Shown: one piece after another, positions 8,036-61,554 of the stretch
Layout: every line of letters starts with the position of its first letter
Position numbering within the stretch: position 1 is the first letter of the stretch
Assembly: GCA_021790895.1 (NCBI GenBank)
Contig: JAJYFM010000002.1
Span: 1 to 64,000 of the forward strand
Length of the DNA: 64,000 nt
Origin: a bacterium
GTDB taxonomy: Bacteria > Vulcanimicrobiota > Vulcanimicrobiia > Vulcanimicrobiales > Vulcanimicrobiaceae
Direction: 5' to 3'
Position numbers and translations under genes: made by a program
Notes under the pieces: generated by a model
What the model was told of the DNA's origin: nothing
The model's database searches: none
What the model saw: the letters and a program-made list of their open reading frames with translations, nothing else

Positions 8036-10636
8036 ATAGATTCTTTCGCTCGCCTGCACGGCTCCGTCGCTCGCTGGTGCTCGGAAAGGCTCGTCGAGGC
8101 GAGTGCACCGCAGCGCGAGGGAATCCCGGCAATACTCGACGGCCATCACGTTTTCATCTGCTCGCCGACCGGCACGGGGAAAACGTTGACGGCATTTTTG
8201 CCGATCTTTTCCGATCTCGCCGAACGACGAGATCGCGACGAGTTGTTCGCGCGCACCTTCGCTCTCTACGTTTCGCCGCTCCGAGCATTGGGATACGACG
8301 TCGAGCATAACGTCCGCCGCCCGTTGCGGGAAATGGGTTTACTCGAGCGCCCCAATTCAGAGCGTGCGCGCGTTCGTCGCGGGCGCATTCGCGAGCATTT
8401 CGTGCGTACCGGCGTTCGCACCGGCGATACCCCACCGGAAGAGCGGCGCCTCATGCTTTCGCGCCCACCGCATATCTTGATGACGACGCCGGAGTCGCTG
8501 GCGCTCATGCTGGCGATGGAGCGTTACCGCGTGACGCTGCGCGATATCCGTTTCATCGTTCTTGATGAAGTGCACGCGCTTGCCGGCAACAAGCGCGGCG
8601 CCCAGTTGAGCCTGCTTTTGGAGTCACTCGAAGCGTTCACTCGCGCACCGGCGCAACGAATCGGGCTCTCGGCGAGTGTCGCTCCGATCGAGCGCGCCGC
8701 CCGCTATCTCGTCGGTACGGATCGTCCTTACGCGGTGGTCGATACGCGCGCCTTGCGCGAGACACGTCTCGATATCCGCGCGCCGTTTACCGGCGCGATG
8801 GCTCCGCTAGCGACGCTCGCGCGCAGCGCAGCCTCGGCGATCGATCGCGCAGGTACGACGCTCGTGTTTACCAACGTGCGCAGCCAGACCGAGCGCATCG
8901 CCTACGAGTTGCGCCTCCTCGAAGGCGAGGGCGTTCCGATTGAGACGCTCGAAGGCGACGCCGCGCCGCGTCATTCCGATGCACGCATCGGCGTGCATCA
9001 CAGCGCGCTGGAGCGGAGCGTTCGCCATCGCACCGAAGCGCGATTGCGCGCGGGCGAACTGCGCGCGGTCGTTTGCTCCGCATCATTGGAACTCGGTGTC
9101 GATATCGGGGCGATCGAGCAAGTGCTTCTCATCGGCGGCGCGCGCGGCGTCGTTACAACGTTGCAGCGTATCGGTCGCGCCGGGCACCGCCCCGGCGATA
9201 TCGCGCGCGGCGTCGTTCTCGCCCAGGATCGCGACGACATCATCGAGGCGGCGGCGACGCGGCGTTGCATCGCCGATGCTGCGATCGAAGAGATCGCCGT
9301 TCCACGCGTGCCGCTCGACGTGCTCGCGCAGTGGATGGTTTCGTGCGTCGTTCCCGAGCGGCGCGTCGACCTCGATGAGCTCATGCAGGTCGCGCGGCGC
9401 GCGACGCCCTTCGCCGAGCTGGAGCGCGAGGATCTGTTCGCCTGCGCCGCCTATCTCGGCGGCGGCGGCGTCGCCGGCGAACCCGCGCACGTTCGACGGA
9501 TCGGATTCGATGGGCGAACGATCTGGGGTTTGGGGCGTGAGGCAAGCGCCGCATTCTTTGAAAACATCGGCACGATTCCCGACGAACGCAGCGTACCGGT
9601 CCGCATCGCCGGAGAGCGGTCCTTCGGACGACTCGAAGAGGATTTCGTCGACCGTTTGCGCGTCGGCGATATCTTCGTTCTTGAAGGACGCACGGTGCGG
9701 GTCGAATCGATCGATCGCTCGGGTATTACGACGCGCGCGCATCGCGGGCGACCGACGGTTCCGCAATGGAACTCGAATATTCGCGGCATTGAAACGCCGC
9801 TCGCAGATGAGATCGAGCGGTTGCGGGTCGGGGTCGCAGATCGCATAACGGCGGGAGAGCGCTTCGAAGCCACCGTCTGGCTGGAGCGGCGGTATGGACT
9901 GAGCGAAGATCTTCGCGAGCGGGTCGTCGCCTACATCGAACAACAGCTTGCGGTGAGCGCGATACCGCGGCGAGATCGCCCGATCGTCGAAATCTACCAC
10001 CTCGATGGATTGCAAAGCGCGGTCGTACTGACGGGAATCGGGCGAAAAGCGAACGAGGCGCTTGCGCGGGTCGCAGCGACGCGCATTGCGCGCATTGCGA
10101 GCGGTTCGGTGCGGATCCTCACCGACGATCTGGGAATCATGCTGCAACTCCCCCCGCGAACGCGCTTGCAGGATGCGCAGTGGGAACGGCTGCTCGAGGA
10201 GGAGGGCTTCGATGGCGACCTGCGCGAGGGGCTACTCGGCTCGACGCTCCTGCGAACGCATTTCCGCTACGTCGCCAACACCGGACTCCTGGTGCTGCGG
10301 CGCGCGAACGGCCGTTCGCTGCGCGCCTCCTCGCTCCGTTGGAACAGCGGCCGTATTCTCGATCGACTCGTTCGCGAAGATGCTCGCTTCCCGCTCGTGC
10401 GCGAAGCGTTTCGCAGCGTCTGCGAAGATGTTCTCGATGCGGAACGCGCGCGGAACTTTTGTGCCTCGTTGCTCGCTCCGCCGCGCATCCTGCACCCTCC
10501 GGTCGCATCGCCGATGAGTTTTGGGATCCTCACGTCATCGTTCGGCGACGATGTCGCGGTCGCCGACCGCAGCGAGTTGGTCGATGCACTCCACGAACGG
10601 GTGCTCGCCTATCTTGCGGGAGCGATCGCTCCGTGA
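8036..10636 (+). CDS. lhr: Lhr-family (large helicase-related) DEAD/DEAH helicase; N-terminus extends upstream of the track ORF start at 8186
   Basis: APQREGIPAILDGHHVFICSPTGTGKT upstream of 8186, VLDEVHAL, LSASVAPIERAARYL, VCSASLELGVDIGAIEQVLLIG, RIGRAGHRPG. Confidence 0.88.
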   Translation: MDSFARLHGSVARWCSERLVEASAPQREGIPAILDGHHVFICSPTGTGKTLTAFLPIFSDLAERRDRDELFARTFALYVSPLRALGYDVEHNVRRPLREMGLLERPNSERARVRRGRIREHFVRTGVRTGDTPPEERRLMLSRPPHILMTTPESLALMLAMERYRVTLRDIRFIVLDEVHALAGNKRGAQLSLLLESLEAFTRAPAQRIGLSASVAPIERAARYLVGTDRPYAVVDTRALRETRLDIRAPFTGAMAPLATLARSAASAIDRAGTTLVFTNVRSQTERIAYELRLLEGEGVPIETLEGDAAPRHSDARIGVHHSALERSVRHRTEARLRAGELRAVVCSASLELGVDIGAIEQVLLIGGARGVVTTLQRIGRAGHRPGDIARGVVLAQDRDDIIEAAATRRCIADAAIEEIAVPRVPLDVLAQWMVSCVVPERRVDLDELMQVARRATPFAELEREDLFACAAYLGGGGVAGEPAHVRRIGFDGRTIWGLGREASAAFFENIGTIPDERSVPVRIAGERSFGRLEEDFVDRLRVGDIFVLEGRTVRVESIDRSGITTRAHRGRPTVPQWNSNIRGIETPLADEIERLRVGVADRITAGERFEATVWLERRYGLSEDLRERVVAYIEQQLAVSAIPRRDRPIVEIYHLDGLQSAVVLTGIGRKANEALARVAATRIARIASGSVRILTDDLGIMLQLPPRTRLQDAQWERLLEEEGFDGDLREGLLGSTLLRTHFRYVANTGLLVLRRANGRSLRASSLRWNSGRILDRLVREDARFPLVREAFRSVCEDVLDAERARNFCASLLAPPRILHPPVASPMSFGILTSSFGDDVAVADRSELVDALHERVLAYLAGAIAP

Positions 10637-14759: not shown

Positions 14760-16237
14760 ACGGCACGGAGCGCGCAACAAAACTGCTCGTCGGCGGAAAA
14801 TGGATCGAGAGCGAGCGCAGTTACATCGACTATAACCCTGCGACCGGGAAAGAACTCGCACGCATTGCCGATGCGTCGAAGGCCGATTGCGATGCCGCAG
14901 TCACCGCCGCCCGCACCGCGTTCGACGCCGGGAAGTGGTCGGGAATGCCCGCATCACGGCGCGCAAAAATACTCAATCGAATGGCAGCGCGCATCGGTGA
15001 GATGGCGAGTTCGATTATGGAGTCGGAGATTCGCGATAACGGAAAAGCATCGGCGACTGCGAAAGGCGAGATCGGCGCGATCGTCGACTGCTTCGAATTT
15101 TATGCCGGGGCGATTTTAACGTTCGGCGGGCAAACGCTCTCCGGCCCGCTCCCGAGCTATCTTTCCTACACGTTGCGCGAACCCGTCGGCGTCGTCGGCG
15201 CGATCGTCCCCTGGAATTTTCCGCTCCTGCTCGCGAGTTGGAAGGTCGCACCGGCGCTCGCCGCCGGCTGCGCCGTGGTGCTCAAACCGGCGCCTGCGAC
15301 ACCGTTAACGGCGCTCGCGCTCGGTGAAATTGCGCTGGAGTGCGGAGTCCCCGAAGGCATTCTCAACGTCGTCACCGGTGAAGGGCGCGAACTCGGGCAG
15401 TGGATCGTCGAACATCCGGGCGTCGACAAGATCGCGTTTACCGGCAGCACGCAGACGGGACGGATCGTCGCGGCAACCGCTGCACAGACGCTCAAGCGCG
15501 TGACGTTGGAGCTCGGCGGAAAATCGCCGACGCTGGTTTTCGACGATGCCGATATCGACGCCGCGGTCGCCGCATCGATCTATGCAATCTATTACAACAG
15601 CGGTCAGGCTTGTGAAGCGCGCTCGCGCGTACTCGTCCACGAATCGGTCTACGATCGCTTTCTCGAGATGTTTGCCGCAAGAAGCGCCGGGCTGCGTCAA
15701 GGCGATCCGCTCGACCCACAGACGCAGATCGGTGCGATCACGCTCCGCGAGCAGTTCGAAAAAATCGAACGCTATTGCGCGCTCGGAATCGAAGATGGTG
15801 CGCGCCTGATTTTCGGCGGAAAGGCGGCGCAGATCGATGGCGAGTTTTCCGAAGGGATGTTCTGGCAGCCGACGGCCTTCGAAGCCGATCCAAGCACGCG
15901 CATCGCGCGCGAGGAAATTTTCGGGCCGGTCGTTGTCTTCTCACGCTTTCGCGATGAACGCGAAGCGATTGCGATGGCGAACGATTCCGATTATGGGCTC
16001 GCCGCGAGCGTATGGACGCGCGATGTCGGGCGCGCCCATCGCGTCGTCCGCGCGCTACGGAGCGGCACCGTCGCGGTCAATGCGCCCTACTCCGTTTTCC
16101 CGGGCGTTCCGTTCGGTGGCTACAAGTCCTCAGGATACGGACGCGATCTTTCGGCCGATACGCTCTCGCTCTATAGCGAAACGAAAAGCGCGCTGCTCCA
16201 AATCGGAGAGCGCGCGATGAATCCGTTCGGCGTATAG
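14756..16237 (+). CDS. Aldehyde dehydrogenase family protein
   Basis: [40 protein letters not shown] (Cys), EEIFGPVVV. Confidence 0.92.
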
Positions 16238-21408: not shown

Positions 21409-21684
21409 ATGGTTACCGCTTTCATCCTCATGAACGTCGAGCGCCCACGTCTGAAATCGATCGCCGACGATCTCCTCGCCATCGACGGCATCGCCGAGGT
21501 CTACTCCGTCGCCGGACCCTTCGATCTCGTTGCGATTGCGCGCGTACGCGAGCACGGGCAACTCAACGATCTCGTCACCGAACGCATGAGTGCACTCGAG
21601 GGAATCGAGTCGACCGAGACGCTGATTGCCTTCCGATCTTTTGCGAAAAAAGATCTTGGCTTGCTCTGGGATATCGGAGAATAG
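21409..21684 (+). CDS. Stand-alone RAM (Lrp/AsnC ligand-binding) domain protein
   Basis: AFILMNVERPRLKSIADDLLAIDGIAEVYSVAGPFDLVAIARVREHGQLNDLVTERMSALEGI. Confidence 0.85.
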   Translation: MVTAFILMNVERPRLKSIADDLLAIDGIAEVYSVAGPFDLVAIARVREHGQLNDLVTERMSALEGIESTETLIAFRSFAKKDLGLLWDIGE

Positions 21685-21908
21685 CGCGCCGTCGTTTTCA
21701 TTGAGCGCGATGTCTGGATAGTGAGTTGAATGAGCCGCTCAACTGCTATTCGCCACCTGACTTCGCCGCGTTTTATTGCGTCAAGAACGCCGCATTTTTG
21801 GAGAAAGCCGAAGGCGATCGAGGGGTACAACTAGTCTGCATCATCGAGCCGAAATTTCGCCCAAAAAAGAACCGAGCTGTGGCGAGCGTAAAAACAACGG
21901 GCAAACGG

Positions 21909-22739
21909 TTACGCTATAATTGATTCAAAACCATCAGAGGCGCCCGTTTTGCGTTTTGAAGTTCGCGGAATTAGGAATCGCATTAAAACGGCCAAAAGAA
22001 CGAAAGATGCGCCCCCCAAGGTGTACCAGGTCAAGGGTTCGCGGCCAAACCAGCCGCCGAGAAGGAGCGCCAGCGCGCCAATAATTACGTCGGTATAGGC
22101 AGTTCTCTCTGCACCGATCGTCACGACTAAATACCCAAATATCAAGCTTCCAAAGCCCGTGACAGCGATTCCAAGGGTAATACCAACGCCGATTGAACCG
22201 AGGGAAGGATGAGGAGGGAGCACAAGCGCCGGGCTAAGGGCAGCTAAGGAAATCAAGCTCACGGGCACCATTGCCCCTCCGCCTCTGGACCACCGTTCTA
22301 AAAGCACATATCCAGCCGCATACGATATTACGCCGCCGATACAAATAGCCATTGCTAACGGCTGCGTTGCAATTGAGTGCGATCCTTGAACCATCAAATA
22401 AACACCGAAAATCGCAGCGGTAGAACAAAGGCCCATGACGATGCCGAAATTTTCCATTTTCAGAAGTGCTCTAATAATGCCGGCAGCCATTGGAGTCCCA
22501 GCGAAGCAAACCGCAACAAAACCTGTTGTAAGCAGATTGACGCTGCTATACATTATCACGCCTGGAATAAGATTTAAGAAGACCGCAACGATGCTCGCCT
22601 TTCTCCACGGTATCGCACCAGGGCGAAAATAGCGCAATAAAATAATGCTCCCCGCCGCCAGTCGTAGTGCGTATGCTGACCAGGGAGAAATGTCGGCGCC
22701 CTGGTACTTCATCAATAAGTAACTCGGACTCCACAACAA
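21909..22739 (-). CDS. EamA/DMT-family transporter; true N-terminus probably extends to about 22790
   Basis: Polytopic; first TM IIAIIAFLAIILLWSPSYLLMK runs upstream of the TTG start in the track. Confidence 0.8.
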   Translation of the reverse strand: MLWSPSYLLMKYQGADISPWSAYALRLAAGSIILLRYFRPGAIPWRKASIVAVFLNLIPGVIMYSSVNLLTTGFVAVCFAGTPMAAGIIRALLKMENFGIVMGLCSTAAIFGVYLMVQGSHSIATQPLAMAICIGGVISYAAGYVLLERWSRGGGAMVPVSLISLAALSPALVLPPHPSLGSIGVGITLGIAVTGFGSLIFGYLVVTIGAERTAYTDVIIGALALLLGGWFGREPLTWYTLGGASFVLLAVLMRFLIPRTSKRKTGASDGFESIIA

Positions 22740-22799: not shown

Positions 22800-23927
22800 T
22801 TAGAGGTTTTTTTCCATCCAGATGAATCGCCTGAATCCGCTTTTCTCTAAATTTTTAATGGACCTAACGTTGTCGTCGTAAACATCAGCGCGAAGTGTTT
22901 TTAGACCCATTTGAATGGCTTGTTTTTCTAAAAGCATCATGATTTGCCCGCCGTATGATTTCCCGCGCTCGTTTGGATGAACCAAGAATCCGAATGTGCC
23001 CATAAATTGGCTTTCACGGGTTATAGTAAACCCGCCGATTCGCTGGGCGTTTTGAAAAACCGTAAAAACAGTTCGTTTTCTCAAAAAAGACTTGAACTCA
23101 CTTAATGAGTCGATAGGAGCAGCGTACATTTGCCTGCGAACTTCTGGATCAGAATAGAGCGCCATCCAAAAAGGCATGTCCTCATCCACGACAGCGCGCG
23201 CTTCGAGTGTGCCGTGTATAAGTGGGGCATCCAGTGTAAAAGGCTGTTCGAGCGGCGCAAGTTGATACGTCTCGAAGAAAATGCTTGCCACGGCACCGTT
23301 GACATATCCCTTGCGAGTTTTTCGCCCCCGCACGAACTCCCAAAACGCGTGATGATAATCTTTTGACGTAAAGGCGTCTCTACAAAAATGCGCTCTCAAT
23401 GTTGGTTTGTTCAGTTGGTTAGCCAAGTAAATTTGCCACACGCGCCGCGATTCAACTCCTAAACTTAGCGTGGCAACAAAAATTTGTTCGTACGCAAGGC
23501 ATAGACTGCCCAACCATACTCGTTGTTCTGCCGTCAGTGAGTGCGGCGGATAAAGCGGCGGCGTATCTATACTGGGCGACGAGGGCTCAACAAGCATTTG
23601 TGCATAATCACTGTTGACAAGAGCCTGATCGTACAACTGCCCAAGGCGTGAAAGGGCAATGCTCCAACTGGTTGTTTCGCTTTGTCGGATTTGTGTAAGG
23701 ACGGCATAAGAGGTTCCGAGGAGGGCCAAGCCGCTTACAAAAATGCCCACCCAGCTCCCCCATCCTGACATTGCGTCGAAGCGTGAGTTGAGGCGTAAGG
23801 CTAGAGCAACGATTATTGAAATGGCCACGACAGTCAGGACTACAAAAAGCGGGATCCCAATCGTTCGGGAGCCTTCGATCAGGGTGCTGGCTGAACTGTA
23901 CTGGCGATCTTCCGGTGAAGACTTCAT
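22800..23927 (-). CDS. Membrane-anchored protein with C-terminal GNAT acetyltransferase domain
   Basis: Two N-terminal TM segments (IPLFVVLTVVAISIIVALAL; WVGIFVSGLALLGTSYAVL); C-terminal LVHPNERGKSYGGQIMMLLEKQAIQMGLKTLRADVYDDNVRSIKNLEKSGF. Confidence 0.78.
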   Translation of the reverse strand: MKSSPEDRQYSSASTLIEGSRTIGIPLFVVLTVVAISIIVALALRLNSRFDAMSGWGSWVGIFVSGLALLGTSYAVLTQIRQSETTSWSIALSRLGQLYDQALVNSDYAQMLVEPSSPSIDTPPLYPPHSLTAEQRVWLGSLCLAYEQIFVATLSLGVESRRVWQIYLANQLNKPTLRAHFCRDAFTSKDYHHAFWEFVRGRKTRKGYVNGAVASIFFETYQLAPLEQPFTLDAPLIHGTLEARAVVDEDMPFWMALYSDPEVRRQMYAAPIDSLSEFKSFLRKRTVFTVFQNAQRIGGFTITRESQFMGTFGFLVHPNERGKSYGGQIMMLLEKQAIQMGLKTLRADVYDDNVRSIKNLEKSGFRRFIWMEKNL

Positions 23928-24116
23928 AGGGGGCTCGATTCACCAATCGCCTCGTAGAGCCCCTTTACAAGAAGACGGGGTGGGGACACATTTTCTTGGT
24001 CTGGTGCGTCGGAGGGCACCTTGCCGCCACCATTCAGTCGGCAATAATCAGCAAGGGTACTTTTGCTCGGCAGTCAGTCGTCCTTTTCCCCGCTGCCACA
24101 AATCGTAATTGCTCAT
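23924..24116 (-). pseudogene. Small ORF (about 64 aa if joined) split by an apparent +1 frameshift, upstream of the GNAT gene
   Basis: Frame 1 MSNYDLWQRGKGRLTAEQKYPC* (24116-24048); next frame ...ADYCRLNGGGKVPSDAPDQENVSPPRLLVKGLYEAIGESSPL* ending in ATGA overlap with GNAT start. Confidence 0.45.
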
Positions 24117-24175
24117 CGCGTTCCGTTCTTTTGCGGAAAAAGATCTTGGCTTGCTCTGGGATATCGGGGAGTAGC
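24111..24175 (+). pseudogene. Remnant 3' end of a diverged RAM-domain gene allele
   Basis: Encodes LIAFRSFAEKDLGLLWDIGE*, matching the end of the 21409-21684 gene with mostly synonymous differences. Confidence 0.88.
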
Positions 24176-56887: not shown

Positions 56888-56992
56888 GGGCGCGCTCTTC
56901 GCCGTGGAAGCGGGTGGTTCCGCGAACGCAAGCGGGCGGTGCAGAGAAGCGGCGGTGTCGCACGACTCGAAGGCAGGGGAACAGCGTCGGCT

Positions 56993-59299
56993 ATGGGCTC
57001 GCAGCGCGCTTTTACGATGCTTGAAACGATCGCTGCTCTCGGAATCGTCGTGCTCGTGCTGCTCGCGGGACTGCGCATCGCGACGCTCGCTCGCAGCCCC
57101 GGCGCAACGGCGGATGCCGCCGCGCAACTCGATGGCGCGCTTGCCCTTGCCCGCTCGCTCGCCCGCGCTTCGGGGAACGGCGCGACGCTCGTCGTTCTGC
57201 CGCGCAACGACACGCACGGAAACAGGATCGTCGGTTTTCGCATCGTGATCTACCGGGGGCGCCCTACCGCTGCCGGAGCGGCGACCCTCGCGCGCGCGCT
57301 GCCGCTGGTCGCCGATGCAACCCTCCGTGAAGCGAGCCTCGGCGCGCCGCCGCTCGCGATATTCTTTCGGCGCGACGGCAGCGCGGTTGCGCTCGCGCAC
57401 CCGTCGCTCGGCGGAAGCGCGGCAGCGCCGCAACTTGCGACGATCGCCGCGGAGCCACCCTGCCCGAGCGCAACCGGAGTATCGCTGCTCGTCACGCGCA
57501 ACGGTGCGACCGCAACGCGCAGCATTCCGTGCCCCGTCGCCGAGGGCGCGGCTGCGGCACCACAGGCTTCGATGACGCCGAACCCGCCGACACTTTCACC
57601 GCGCACGTTGGTATTCGCATGGCCGAGCGCGCCGGTGCAATGGTTTGCGGTGGCGGAGTTCGGCTATCGGGGATGGTTCGCCGCGATGGGCGCTGCGATG
57701 CAAAATTTTACCTGTCGCGCGAACGCTACGACGGTGGTGATGTTTCCGAGTTCGCCGCCGTACTCCGGGCCGCAGTCGCTCGCCGATGCGCAGAGCTTTC
57801 CACCGCCGCCGAATGCGGTGCCGTATGCCTATGCGGCGAGTGCGAGTCGTACCGCCGGCGCGATGGACGATGCGCCGGCGCATTTCCCGGTGCATCCCGT
57901 CGCGGCGGGAATCTGCGCCGTTCCGATCGTCGATGCATTCGCGCAACACAGCGATCCGTGGGGAAACCCACTCGTCGTCGCGACGCAGGTCATGGGGTGG
58001 CTAACGCTCGCGAATCCTGCAACCGGCGCAATCGCAACGGCGAAGAGTGCGCCGCTGGTCGCAAACAGCGCGCCGCTTGCGTCGGGGAAGAGCGTCACGG
58101 TCGATGCGAGTAAAGGCTACGACAACGATGCGGCGGGAATTGTTTTTACGGCCCCGATCTGGAGTTCGACGAGTTGCGGTAGCGCGCTCACGTTCACTGC
58201 GGCGGGGAACAACACGGCGGGCAGCGCCCCGACCGGCACCGCGACACATGCCTTTATGATAACGAACGGCAACCCACCGAGCAGCGCGCTTACCTGCACG
58301 GGCACGATCACCGACCAGTACGGCGAACCGCGCGTCGCCTTTACGGTGAATGTTGCCGCATCGGCTGTGGCCTCGTTACTGACCTGGCCTGCTGGGGGCG
58401 TGGTCGAGGCGGCCTCGGGGGCGACGCTGGCGATGCTGCCGATGCACGAGCCGCTCATCGCACAGTTGTTCGGTGCAGAGATCGCCGATGCGACGCTGAC
58501 GCTTGGCTGCAAAGCCGTCGCGCTTCCACAGGGTGGAATCTATCCCGTAAACGCCGGGTACTACGCAAACGACGCGAATATCCCGACGCAAGTCCTCGGG
58601 ATACTGAAAAACCAGGGCTACAGCGTTGATGCGACCGGCTGCGTTTTGCAGAATAATGTGCCCGCCGCGCAAGCCCCGCTCGTCGCGTACGAACCGGGCG
58701 ACACAAGCGCGACGACACCGACGTATCAACCCACAGCGCAAAACTGTTCCAATATCGTCTCGCTCGGGCAGCCAACACCGTTAAACGCCCTCCGTGTACC
58801 ATTTGGCCCACAGGTGCTTATCCCGGTGATTCCCGGCACGAATGCGGGAAGTTGCTCGGTCACGGTCGCGACGACGCCCGCCCAGGCGAGCGCGCCTGCG
58901 AACGGCAGCGGACTCGTTCCGGTACAGGTGGTGGGGTCATGTGGCACAACGCTTGCGATTGGGCAATCGTGTTACCCGAGATTCAACTTTCCGCCATCGG
59001 TGAGCACGTTCTGCCTCCCCGATAATCCGCCGTCTTATCAAAGCGGTTACACCGGAGGGACTGAGTATATCGTGAGCAGTTCACCGACGAGCGGAGTGGT
59101 GCTTGTGAACGGAGCAACGTCACCAATGCTCGTGAAGAGCATGCCACTCATCACGCGGATTGGGGCGGGAACGATTAGCGTCGAAGGGCTCGCGCAGTAT
59201 CAATCAAACACAGTAGAGAAAAAGCCAGTTTCGGGTTCCACCTGTATAACGGTTAACTCCTACAAGCCTTTCCCCGGCAACATGCTGACCATCAACTAA
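56993..59299 (+). CDS. Large type IV pilin-like (prepilin N-methylation signal) secreted protein, 768 aa
   Basis: N-terminus MGSQRAFTMLETIAALGIVVLVLLAGL (class III signal with E+5-type residue) followed by a long exported region. Confidence 0.6.
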   Translation: MGSQRAFTMLETIAALGIVVLVLLAGLRIATLARSPGATADAAAQLDGALALARSLARASGNGATLVVLPRNDTHGNRIVGFRIVIYRGRPTAAGAATLARALPLVADATLREASLGAPPLAIFFRRDGSAVALAHPSLGGSAAAPQLATIAAEPPCPSATGVSLLVTRNGATATRSIPCPVAEGAAAAPQASMTPNPPTLSPRTLVFAWPSAPVQWFAVAEFGYRGWFAAMGAAMQNFTCRANATTVVMFPSSPPYSGPQSLADAQSFPPPPNAVPYAYAASASRTAGAMDDAPAHFPVHPVAAGICAVPIVDAFAQHSDPWGNPLVVATQVMGWLTLANPATGAIATAKSAPLVANSAPLASGKSVTVDASKGYDNDAAGIVFTAPIWSSTSCGSALTFTAAGNNTAGSAPTGTATHAFMITNGNPPSSALTCTGTITDQYGEPRVAFTVNVAASAVASLLTWPAGGVVEAASGATLAMLPMHEPLIAQLFGAEIADATLTLGCKAVALPQGGIYPVNAGYYANDANIPTQVLGILKNQGYSVDATGCVLQNNVPAAQAPLVAYEPGDTSATTPTYQPTAQNCSNIVSLGQPTPLNALRVPFGPQVLIPVIPGTNAGSCSVTVATTPAQASAPANGSGLVPVQVVGSCGTTLAIGQSCYPRFNFPPSVSTFCLPDNPPSYQSGYTGGTEYIVSSSPTSGVVLVNGATSPMLVKSMPLITRIGAGTISVEGLAQYQSNTVEKKPVSGSTCITVNSYKPFPGNMLTIN

Positions 59300-59316
59300 G
59301 AGTCTGCGCGAATCAG

Positions 59317-59352
59317 AACAAATACCGGAGCGTTTTCGCTCCGGTATTTGTT
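59317..59352. terminator. Strong bidirectional hairpin terminator
   Basis: AACAAATACCGGAGCG-TTTT-CGCTCCGGTATTTGTT, perfect 16-bp stem. Confidence 0.9.
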
Positions 59353-59365
59353 CCGTGGCACGTTC

Positions 59366-59440
59366 CTCGCGCCGTGTTTTTAGGGCCAAACCGGCACGTT
59401 GGGGTCGGTGAACGAACGCGGGTCGATGGGAAACTCCACC
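59366..59440 (-). pseudogene. Remnant 3' end of a diverged copy of the 60586-61554 lipoprotein gene
   Basis: Encodes VEFPIDPRSFTDPNVPVWP* on minus strand, nearly identical to the intact gene end at 60572-60646. Confidence 0.88.
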
Positions 59441-59518
59441 GTCTATTGGTCGGGATATGCATGACGCGTTGATTTCGTGTGCGGCAGGAGGTGCGCGTCT
59501 GTTTCGATAGGGGCACAA

Positions 59519-59554
59519 ATGACAAATGGCTTCTTTTCAAGTATACTATTGAAA
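59519..59554 (+). promoter_or_regulatory. Sigma70-like promoter with overlapping palindromic operator
   Basis: ATGACA (59519-59524), 17-bp spacer, TATACT (59542-59547); inverted repeat TTTCAA-N8-TTGAAA at 59535-59554. Confidence 0.6.
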
Positions 59555-59787
59555 TGATGATGCGCCATCGCCATCTCGTCGATCACGATTACTGGAGCAA
59601 GCCGAAAATTGATGACGTGCTCGAACGCGGCACGCTTGCCGATTGGGATGCCTTGCGTGTCGCCGTCGAGCAAGATCGCACCGTAGCAGCGGACACATTG
59701 GTTGTCGTGAGAGCGAATCGGCGCTACGGAACATCGCCGCTTTGGGAGCGGTTTATCCTTCGGCAATACCCGGAGTTCATTGAATGA
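59554..59787 (+). CDS. Small protein, candidate antitoxin/partner of nucleotidyltransferase
   Basis: MMMRHRHLVDHDYWSKPKIDDVLERGTLADWDALRVAVEQDRTVAADTLVVVRANRRYGTSPLWERFILRQYPEFIE; ATGA overlap with next gene. Confidence 0.65.
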   Translation: MMMRHRHLVDHDYWSKPKIDDVLERGTLADWDALRVAVEQDRTVAADTLVVVRANRRYGTSPLWERFILRQYPEFIE

Positions 59788-60509
59788 TTCATCGACTTAC
59801 AAGTGTTCAAACGCAAGACGATTGGGAACGGGTACTCTCCGCCGCTGCTTACGTTCAACAAATTGTCCCCGACGCAATACTTGTTGGTGGAAGCGCAGCA
59901 GCGATCTACGCCAAGCATCGTTTTTCAGCCGACGACGATCATGTCGTTGCGGATCTCAAGGATCGCTTCGCACGAGTGCTTTCCGATCTCGAAACTGTTT
60001 CGGGTTGGCAAACATCTCGCATCCAACCGCCAGTGCTTATCCTTGGAAATTTTGAAGGCGTCGATACAGGCATACGTAATCTCATTCGGTCGGAGCCACT
60101 AGAAACAACACGCGTCACGACGACTGCTGGCGATATTATTATTCCGACGATTGAAGAGATGTTTCGCATCAAATCGTGGTTGGTGGTGAAGCGTAACGCC
60201 ATGCGTGATTATATCGACACGGTGGCGCTCGCCGATAAGATTGGTGACGAACGCGCCGTCGAAGCATTGCGAGGATTAGATACGCTCTATCCGCAACCAG
60301 GTCAATCGACGCTTATGCAGTTAGCGAAGCAACTTGCCGAGCCCCATCCATACGATGATGCTGCCGATCTACGTATTTACAAGAGTTTACGATCTCCATA
60401 CACGAATACCTCATACTTGATACAACGATCGCTCGATCTTGCCGAAGGAATTGCGTTCGATCGTTGTCGCGCGCAAGAAGTCGAACGCGATCGTGGATTT
60501 GCGCGTTAA
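59784..60509 (+). CDS. Nucleotidyltransferase, AbiEii/AbiGii toxin-like
   Basis: ILVGGSAAAIYAKHRFSADDDHVVADL (GG[S]...DxD), TIEEMFRIKSWLVVKRNAMRDYIDTVALADKIG. Confidence 0.75.
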   Translation: MIHRLTSVQTQDDWERVLSAAAYVQQIVPDAILVGGSAAAIYAKHRFSADDDHVVADLKDRFARVLSDLETVSGWQTSRIQPPVLILGNFEGVDTGIRNLIRSEPLETTRVTTTAGDIIIPTIEEMFRIKSWLVVKRNAMRDYIDTVALADKIGDERAVEALRGLDTLYPQPGQSTLMQLAKQLAEPHPYDDAADLRIYKSLRSPYTNTSYLIQRSLDLAEGIAFDRCRAQEVERDRGFAR

Positions 60510-60522
60510 TCGTTCAAAGAAG

Positions 60523-60563
60523 AAAAAAAAAAGACCCGGGGTGGTACGCTCGGGGTCTTTTTT
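60523..60563. terminator. Bidirectional hairpin terminator
   Basis: AAAAAAGACCC...GGGTCTTTTTT. Confidence 0.8.
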
Positions 60564-60585
60564 AAGCGCCTCTCGCGCCGTGTTT

Positions 60586-61554
60586 TTAGGGCCAAACCGG
60601 CACATTGGGGTCGGTGAACGAACGCGGGTCGATGGGGAATTCCGCACTCTCCATCGTTGTGCTCGAAATTGTTCCCGGAAGGTACTGCCCTGCGAACCAC
60701 AACGTCTGCGGGTTGACCGCGTAGGCGTTGGCACCGGGCGCGAATGAACTTGCGACCCCACTTAGGCAACTCACTCCGCCCTCTTGCCATTCGTTTCCGG
60801 TCGTAATAGATCCGAACGCATTATTCGGCCACGGTGCGTTGTAGTAGTTCGGGCTCTGGTGGAACATATTCGTTGCCCGCACGTTCTCCAACAGCCACTC
60901 GTCGATGCTCCCTGCGGGCAGGTTGTTCGATGCGCGCTCTTGCTGCCAATCGACGAAGCACGGCGTCTCGGTCGTCGGATTCAGCGTTGCGAGCCGATAC
61001 TCGCCGTTGGTCTCCCACGGTTGCGGGGTAATCGTCGGCACGGGCGGCAACGTCGGTGCAAGCAGCGTTTGATTGCCACCTGTCAGCGTCACGTTGTCGT
61101 GAACGGTCGCCTGCACCGGGTCGGTATCGCTCGTGCTGTCGTTGCCGATGACGAGCAGGTAGTGCCCGTTGGGCGCGCCGTTGAGCGTGAACTGCCCGCT
61201 CGCGTTGGTCGTCGCCTGCGGCGAGGGCAGCGGGGTCGGGCAGCCGTCGTTCTCCGGGGTGATTTGCGCGGTCGGTGGCGGGGTGCCGCAGGTGCCGGGG
61301 CCGTTGCCCCAGGGCATCAGCACGACGCGGACGCCGGAGAGTGGCGAGCCGTTGGCGTCGTTCACCACGACGCCCGAGGCGTTGGTGGTCAATGACGAGC
61401 CAGGGGTCGAGACCGGGCTGGAGACCGGCGTGGGGCTTGCGCCGCCGCCAGCCGGCAACGGGGTCGAGCCGCCACCCCCACCGCCGCAGGCGACGAGTCC
61501 CCCAACCATAGCAAGAGCGACGAATGCATAGAGGCTCTGTTGAGTCTTCATCAC
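60586..61554 (-). CDS. Secreted lipoprotein with carboxypeptidase-regulatory-like domain
   Basis: Lipobox VGGLVACGGGGGG; ASGVVVNDANGSPLSGVRVVL, ATTNASGQFTLNGAPNGHYLLVI. Confidence 0.7.
   Translation of the reverse strand: MMKTQQSLYAFVALAMVGGLVACGGGGGGSTPLPAGGGASPTPVSSPVSTPGSSLTTNASGVVVNDANGSPLSGVRVVLMPWGNGPGTCGTPPPTAQITPENDGCPTPLPSPQATTNASGQFTLNGAPNGHYLLVIGNDSTSDTDPVQATVHDNVTLTGGNQTLLAPTLPPVPTITPQPWETNGEYRLATLNPTTETPCFVDWQQERASNNLPAGSIDEWLLENVRATNMFHQSPNYYNAPWPNNAFGSITTGNEWQEGGVSCLSGVASSFAPGANAYAVNPQTLWFAGQYLPGTISSTTMESAEFPIDPRSFTDPNVPVWP

Follow-up and report, generated by a model that had tools for sequence, protein, structure and literature searches.

Gene content of the locus

The window, a 64,000-nt stretch of DNA, lies within one contig (C38) of a fragmented 2.1-Mb genome. 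An intact minus-strand gene (60586–61554) encodes a 322-aa lipoprotein with a lipobox and a carboxypeptidase-regulatory-like domain. Its convergent neighbour on the plus strand (56939–59299) encodes a large pilin-like protein with a weak N-methylation motif and is kept beside the lipoprotein gene in relatives. Between them lie two plus-strand genes that overlap by 4 nt: the first (59554–59787) encodes a 77-aa helical protein, a candidate antitoxin whose motif HRHL..DD..RG..DW is conserved in its homologues, and the second (59784–60509) a 241-aa nucleotidyltransferase of AbiEii/MenT type, a candidate toxin carrying GGS, S48-x-D50, K130 and D145. A plus-strand sigma-70-like promoter, ATGACA-17-TATACT (59519–59547), ends 6 nt ahead of the start codon of the small gene, and a message from this promoter-like site would be leaderless. 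The palindrome TTTCAA-N8-TTGAAA (59535–59554), read by eye from the sequence, overlaps it. Two terminator-like sequences frame the pair: a perfect 17-bp inverted repeat (59316–59353) in the native 3' flank of the site, and an A-rich/stem/T-rich sequence (60527–60566) where the nucleotidyltransferase and lipoprotein genes converge.

An earlier reading, made from the sequence only, had proposed that the last ~75 bp of the lipoprotein gene recur at 59366. The repeat is real. The in-frame 3' end of the intact gene (proximal copy, 60572–60650, minus strand) recurs 1206 bp away as an orphan (distal copy, 59366–59444, minus strand) over 79 nt at 92% identity; in self-comparison, the best stretch covers 72 nt at 95.8% (E = 3e-26). 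With the exception of one circular-contig end-overlap, this is the strongest non-tandem direct repeat in the ~450 kb of the genome that we sampled, and the genome holds no third copy of the tail. Each copy runs through the stop codon into 14 further bases that are identical in the two, and a lipoprotein-like 3' flank is present behind both. The codon differences were described as mainly synonymous, and indeed GAG/GAA, TTT/TTC and AAC/AAT are silent while GTG/GCG exchanges Val and Ala. The reading was also right that only the tail is present at the distal position: its frame is closed by TAG just upstream, at its start, and no lipoprotein sequence could be traced beyond the tail. Both flanks are unique and the longest exact match between the tails is 32 nt; a repeat-induced join, and hence an assembly error, is therefore unlikely. 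No recombinase gene was found in or next to the module, and neither a transposase nor terminal inverted repeats within it; the tail copies do not form a short identical duplication.

A candidate toxin–antitoxin pair

The interior had been called an AbiEii-like pair, a description that fits the nucleotidyltransferase and fails for its partner. The score of the nucleotidyltransferase against the Pfam family AbiEii (PF08843) was sub-threshold (15.9 bits, cut-off 22.5), its NCBIfam score was also under the cut-off, and the PADLOC AbiEii match was weak (E = 0.0023). Motifs of the MenT/AbiEii superfamily are nevertheless present (G-S ... (S/T)-x-D-x-D, K, RDYxD), residues G36, S48, D50, D52, K130, R141, D142 and D145 are invariant in five homologues, and the annotation of a 49%-identical relative, from a conjugative plasmid of Pseudomonas putida, reads 'nucleotidyl transferase AbiEii/AbiGii toxin family protein'. 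Given the sub-threshold Pfam score, we base the AbiEii assignment on the active-site motifs and the annotated relatives. The AlphaFold model of the nucleotidyltransferase was poor (pLDDT 63) and gave weak Foldseek matches, MenT1 and MenT3 among them, none with E <= 0.001. The partner comes from a separate family of small proteins. Profile searches returned no family match for it, and the AbiEi winged-helix (COG5340) did not match. It was modelled as a helical bundle of four to five short helices (pLDDT 85), for which a structure search returned no PDB relatives; sequence searches of the PDB gave nothing meaningful. The operon thus resembles AbiE (AbiEi/AbiEii) in having two genes, one of them an AbiEii-type nucleotidyltransferase under the Pfam cut-off, and differs from it in lacking the AbiEi winged-helix antitoxin.

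Another parallel in layout is MenAT1 of Mycobacterium tuberculosis, whose toxin is blocked by a protein of 68 aa that has no relation to AbiEi (PMC10435456). The published active-site residues of MenT1, T39, D41, K137 and D152 (PMC11375011), match S48, D50, K130 and D145 in order, with the same 15-residue spacing between K and D. In both systems a small non-DNA-binding protein is encoded upstream of a compact nucleotidyltransferase (PMC10435456, PMC11375011). The two pairs show no significant sequence match, however, and MenA1 consists of a long helix and a short one, whereas the model of the present partner has four to five short helices. By analogy with MenAT1 we infer the order candidate antitoxin then candidate toxin, the latter probably adding nucleotides to tRNA as MenT does; the nucleotidyltransferase would be toxic and the 77-aa protein would neutralise it.

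The pair could instead consist of an RNA-modifying or housekeeping nucleotidyltransferase and a small partner outside toxin–antitoxin biology, whatever its route into the locus. The Pfam and NCBIfam scores under their cut-offs would suit such a function, as would a partner that is unlike AbiEi and whose model has no PDB relative. We consider it unlikely, given the patchy distribution of the pair, its carriage on plasmids, the overlapping operon, the conservation of MenT-like residues in the active site and the toxin-family annotation of the 49%-identical relative.

Among 149 genomes of the phylum, 11 had any match to the nucleotidyltransferase, six of them near full-length. Five genomes of the family, G006, G007, G022 and G026 among them, have it together with the 77-aa protein, and the same pair occurs in other phyla, on plasmids of P. 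putida and Acidiphilium. Of nine congeners, seven lack the nucleotidyltransferase and two carry it at a different place in the genome. None of the other matching genomes carries it at the lipoprotein locus, where that locus could be read, and in G006, G007, G022 and G026 no tail duplication surrounds it. The copy in G007 (L041, G007:C27, 9279–10649) sits between a transposase fragment and a broken, truncated pilin-like gene, so the pair again adjoins a relative of the lipoprotein/pilin-like locus. Phage origin was considered and dropped, as there was no match among 50,697 phage records.

Empty and occupied sites in relatives

In this genus, the lipoprotein and pilin-like genes are convergent neighbours beside nuoA/nuoB. 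In G007 and G005 no insert separates them, and their stop codons are 91 and 72 bp apart, respectively; here, 80 bp separate the stop of the distal tail from that of the pilin-like gene, which is the gap that would be left if the 1206-bp unit were removed. Empty sites, whose presence in relatives the earlier reading had suggested looking for, thus exist with the predicted length. Conservation of the pair at this locus throughout the lineage would have spoken against a gain; the pair is absent there in every congener with a readable locus. In G009, read across a contig join, the lipoprotein gene is followed by a short stretch of different sequence, and the nucleotidyltransferase pair is absent; the lipoprotein tail is present there on two contigs with an exact 99-nt end in common, which we read as an assembly-graph overlap and not as a duplication. 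From the empty sites in close relatives we conclude that the insert at the lipoprotein site is a gained cassette.

Other relatives have filled the same gap differently. The order in G004, which lacks the nucleotidyltransferase, is lipoprotein gene, hicA, hicB, second full lipoprotein gene, hicA fragment, pilin-like gene, the lipoprotein repeat extending over 928 bp at 91% identity. In G015, from another genus, hicAB stands directly behind the lipoprotein gene. Pfam confirmed the HicA and HicB of G004. These modules share with our candidate pair the toxin–antitoxin type and the lipoprotein/pilin-like gap, in G004 also the position between lipoprotein repeats; they differ in toxin family and in being co-oriented with the lipoprotein gene, and the repeats of G004 are whole genes. 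About a dozen lipoprotein loci could be read, a small set picked for similarity, and three of them held a toxin–antitoxin module, ours counted as a candidate. We conclude that the lipoprotein/pilin-like gap repeatedly receives toxin–antitoxin modules. As a separate observation, the two full-length lipoprotein genes of G004 (L043, G004:C19, 2631–5060) differ in their signal-peptide regions.

The arrangement in G004 bears on the origin of the orphan tail. The tail could be the stump of a tandem duplication, in which two full lipoprotein genes once stood around the module and the downstream copy lost all but its tail. G004 looks like such a precursor, lipoprotein genes are multicopy in several relatives, and the lipoprotein-like 3' flank behind both tails would follow naturally. 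A deletion would, however, have had to remove the gene body and halt at the tail, leaving nothing of the lipoprotein beyond it. We regard a stump as somewhat unlikely, yet as the main rival at this site.

A companion module at an Lrp/AsnC gene

The module had been announced as the second of its kind in the window, and the first proved genuine. A plus-strand gene with an Lrp/AsnC ligand-binding domain (21409–21684; PF01037) ends in a proximal tail copy (21621–21685, plus strand), and 65 nt of this tail recur at 89% identity as a distal orphan (24111–24175, plus strand). The two copies bracket minus-strand genes for an EamA-family transporter (21909–22739) and a GNAT acetyltransferase (22800–23927); as at the lipoprotein site, the module contains no recombinase gene.

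In six congeners (G001, G003–G007) the site is empty, the Lrp gene lying ~20 bp or less from the next gene. By inspection, that gene is metallo-beta-lactamase-like and is the same gene that follows the distal Lrp copy here; the sequence past the distal stop aligns with the native Lrp junction of the congeners. The ancestral state of the Lrp site was therefore empty, and it is the distal tail that has kept its connection to native sequence and the native downstream gene. Collapse of a tandem duplication is without support here, since the Lrp gene is single copy in congeners, and would leave this second case unexplained. No recurrence of the tail duplication was seen at the Lrp site of G002 and G008, which hold other DNA behind Lrp without a second tail. 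The insert in G002 (L092, G002:C39, 6931–7857) measures 1 kb and carries a single 308-aa gene, so the 3' side of Lrp has received insertions more than once.

Origin of the tail copies

The GC contents of the two interiors are 51.0% and 50.2%, compared with 64% for the lipoprotein and pilin-like genes. The tails themselves differ at 11 coding positions when both pairs are taken together, nine synonymous and two not. Had the copies been identical at insertion, drift would have changed the orphan at all kinds of sites and the gene mainly at synonymous ones. With the small site counts available, the probability under drift of a fresh identical copy was P = 0.10 for the lipoprotein tails (three synonymous, one not) and P = 0.011 for the Lrp tails (six synonymous, one not). 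The synonymous excess therefore favours an imported, already diverged tail over drift of a fresh copy. Probably, one of the tail copies came from a relative that had diverged; the pattern is suggestive for the two pairs and weak for the lipoprotein pair alone.

Copies identical at birth would be expected from a transposon-like insertion with a long target-site duplication, or from copying of nearby DNA during end joining. Either would place a direct repeat around the cargo, as seen in both modules, and this genome does contain a small part of a gene copied to a second place (L122, G000:C1): a 61-nt internal gene piece at 9801–9861 recurs at 15727–15787, 5.9 kb apart, at 95% identity and outside any matching gene. 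The modules, however, show no transposase and no terminal inverted repeat, their differences are mainly synonymous, both repeats end near a stop codon, and known target-site duplications are far shorter than such tail repeats. We hold this origin to be highly improbable.

We give about even chances to the interval being a horizontally gained cassette of toxin–antitoxin type that recombined into the chromosome at the lipoprotein gene's 3' end. On this account, the cassette would have reached the gap between the two convergent genes with its own diverged copy of the lipoprotein tail. After the exchange the gene would read on into one tail copy and stay intact, and the other copy would end up across the insert, next to the native terminator. 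In its simplest form, this would take a single reciprocal exchange within the tail that the chromosome has in common with a circular (or equivalent) donor; we infer both this route and the circularity of the donor. An integrase may have been lost, as in a CIME-like remnant, may act in trans, or may be unneeded if RecA can work over ~70 bp of 92–96% identity. The earlier idea of a gained module is supported by the empty sites of predicted length, the second case and the atypical GC; site-specific integration, excision and circularisation are conjectural, given that no recombinase lies inside and that the layout in G004 allows the stump of a tandem copy. Three tyrosine recombinases are encoded elsewhere in the genome, none with a demonstrated link to either tail site. 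The contig with one of them (L124, G000:C3, 1–9401) has a 146-bp, 98.6% terminal overlap and carries ParA, primase/replication-like and tyrosine-recombinase genes; it is probably a closed 9.25-kb circle, a resident plasmid.

Comparison with known integrative elements

Cis-mobilizable elements (CIMEs) and certain integrative elements target gene 3' ends (PMC5704250), and SGI1 does so at trmE (PMC8409611). Like a CIME, the module at the lipoprotein gene has cargo between imperfect direct repeats that correspond to the target gene's 3' end, leaves that gene intact and carries no integration genes; its repeats are attL/attR-like, one of them forming the 3' end of the target, and target sites are empty in relatives. 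It differs in that the unit spans only ~1.2 kb and an att role for its repeats is conjectural. We found no parental element with an integrase for either the lipoprotein or the Lrp target gene.

The same genus offers a canonical case for comparison, an integrative element at the 3' end of a tRNA-Thr gene in G002 (L179, G002:C3, 1282–7813). Its end repeats are of similar length (58 nt, 95%) and the gene 3' end is likewise doubled at the far end. Unlike the modules described here, it has its own tyrosine integrase (a Phage_integrase gene) and other genes over 6.4 kb, and its target is a tRNA.

Insertion at a gene 3' end without a recombinase is of a kind already known, and our modules are not categorically new. 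The second example in the window and the repeated toxin–antitoxin modules at the lipoprotein site make the case more interesting. If recombination was the route, 1–3 kb of cargo such as a toxin–antitoxin pair can enter behind a protein gene, the gene being unharmed and no recombinase being carried. The pair occurs both in this phylum and on plasmids of Pseudomonas and Acidiphilium, and its partner protein represents a family that is distinct from AbiEi and cannot be recognised as MenA1; the pair therefore offers a way to examine how antitoxins of different kinds control the nucleotidyltransferase toxin fold. A broader proposal is that lipoprotein and other gene 3' ends of this lineage are landing pads for small integrase-less cassettes, often toxin–antitoxin pairs, that are swapped between strains, each with its own copy of the target tail as portable homology or attachment site; we offer it as a speculation that is quite doubtful at present.

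We scanned ~450 kb of this genome, 450 kb of G007 and 340 kb of G002 for a genome-wide habit of this type and saw no further clear tail duplication of a protein gene; tail duplication is therefore not general in the sampled DNA. The scan otherwise returned the tRNA element of G002, tandem arrays, weak matches and one internal gene fragment. Near the start of the window, positions 152–534 hold a head-to-tail array of nearly identical 52-nt units.
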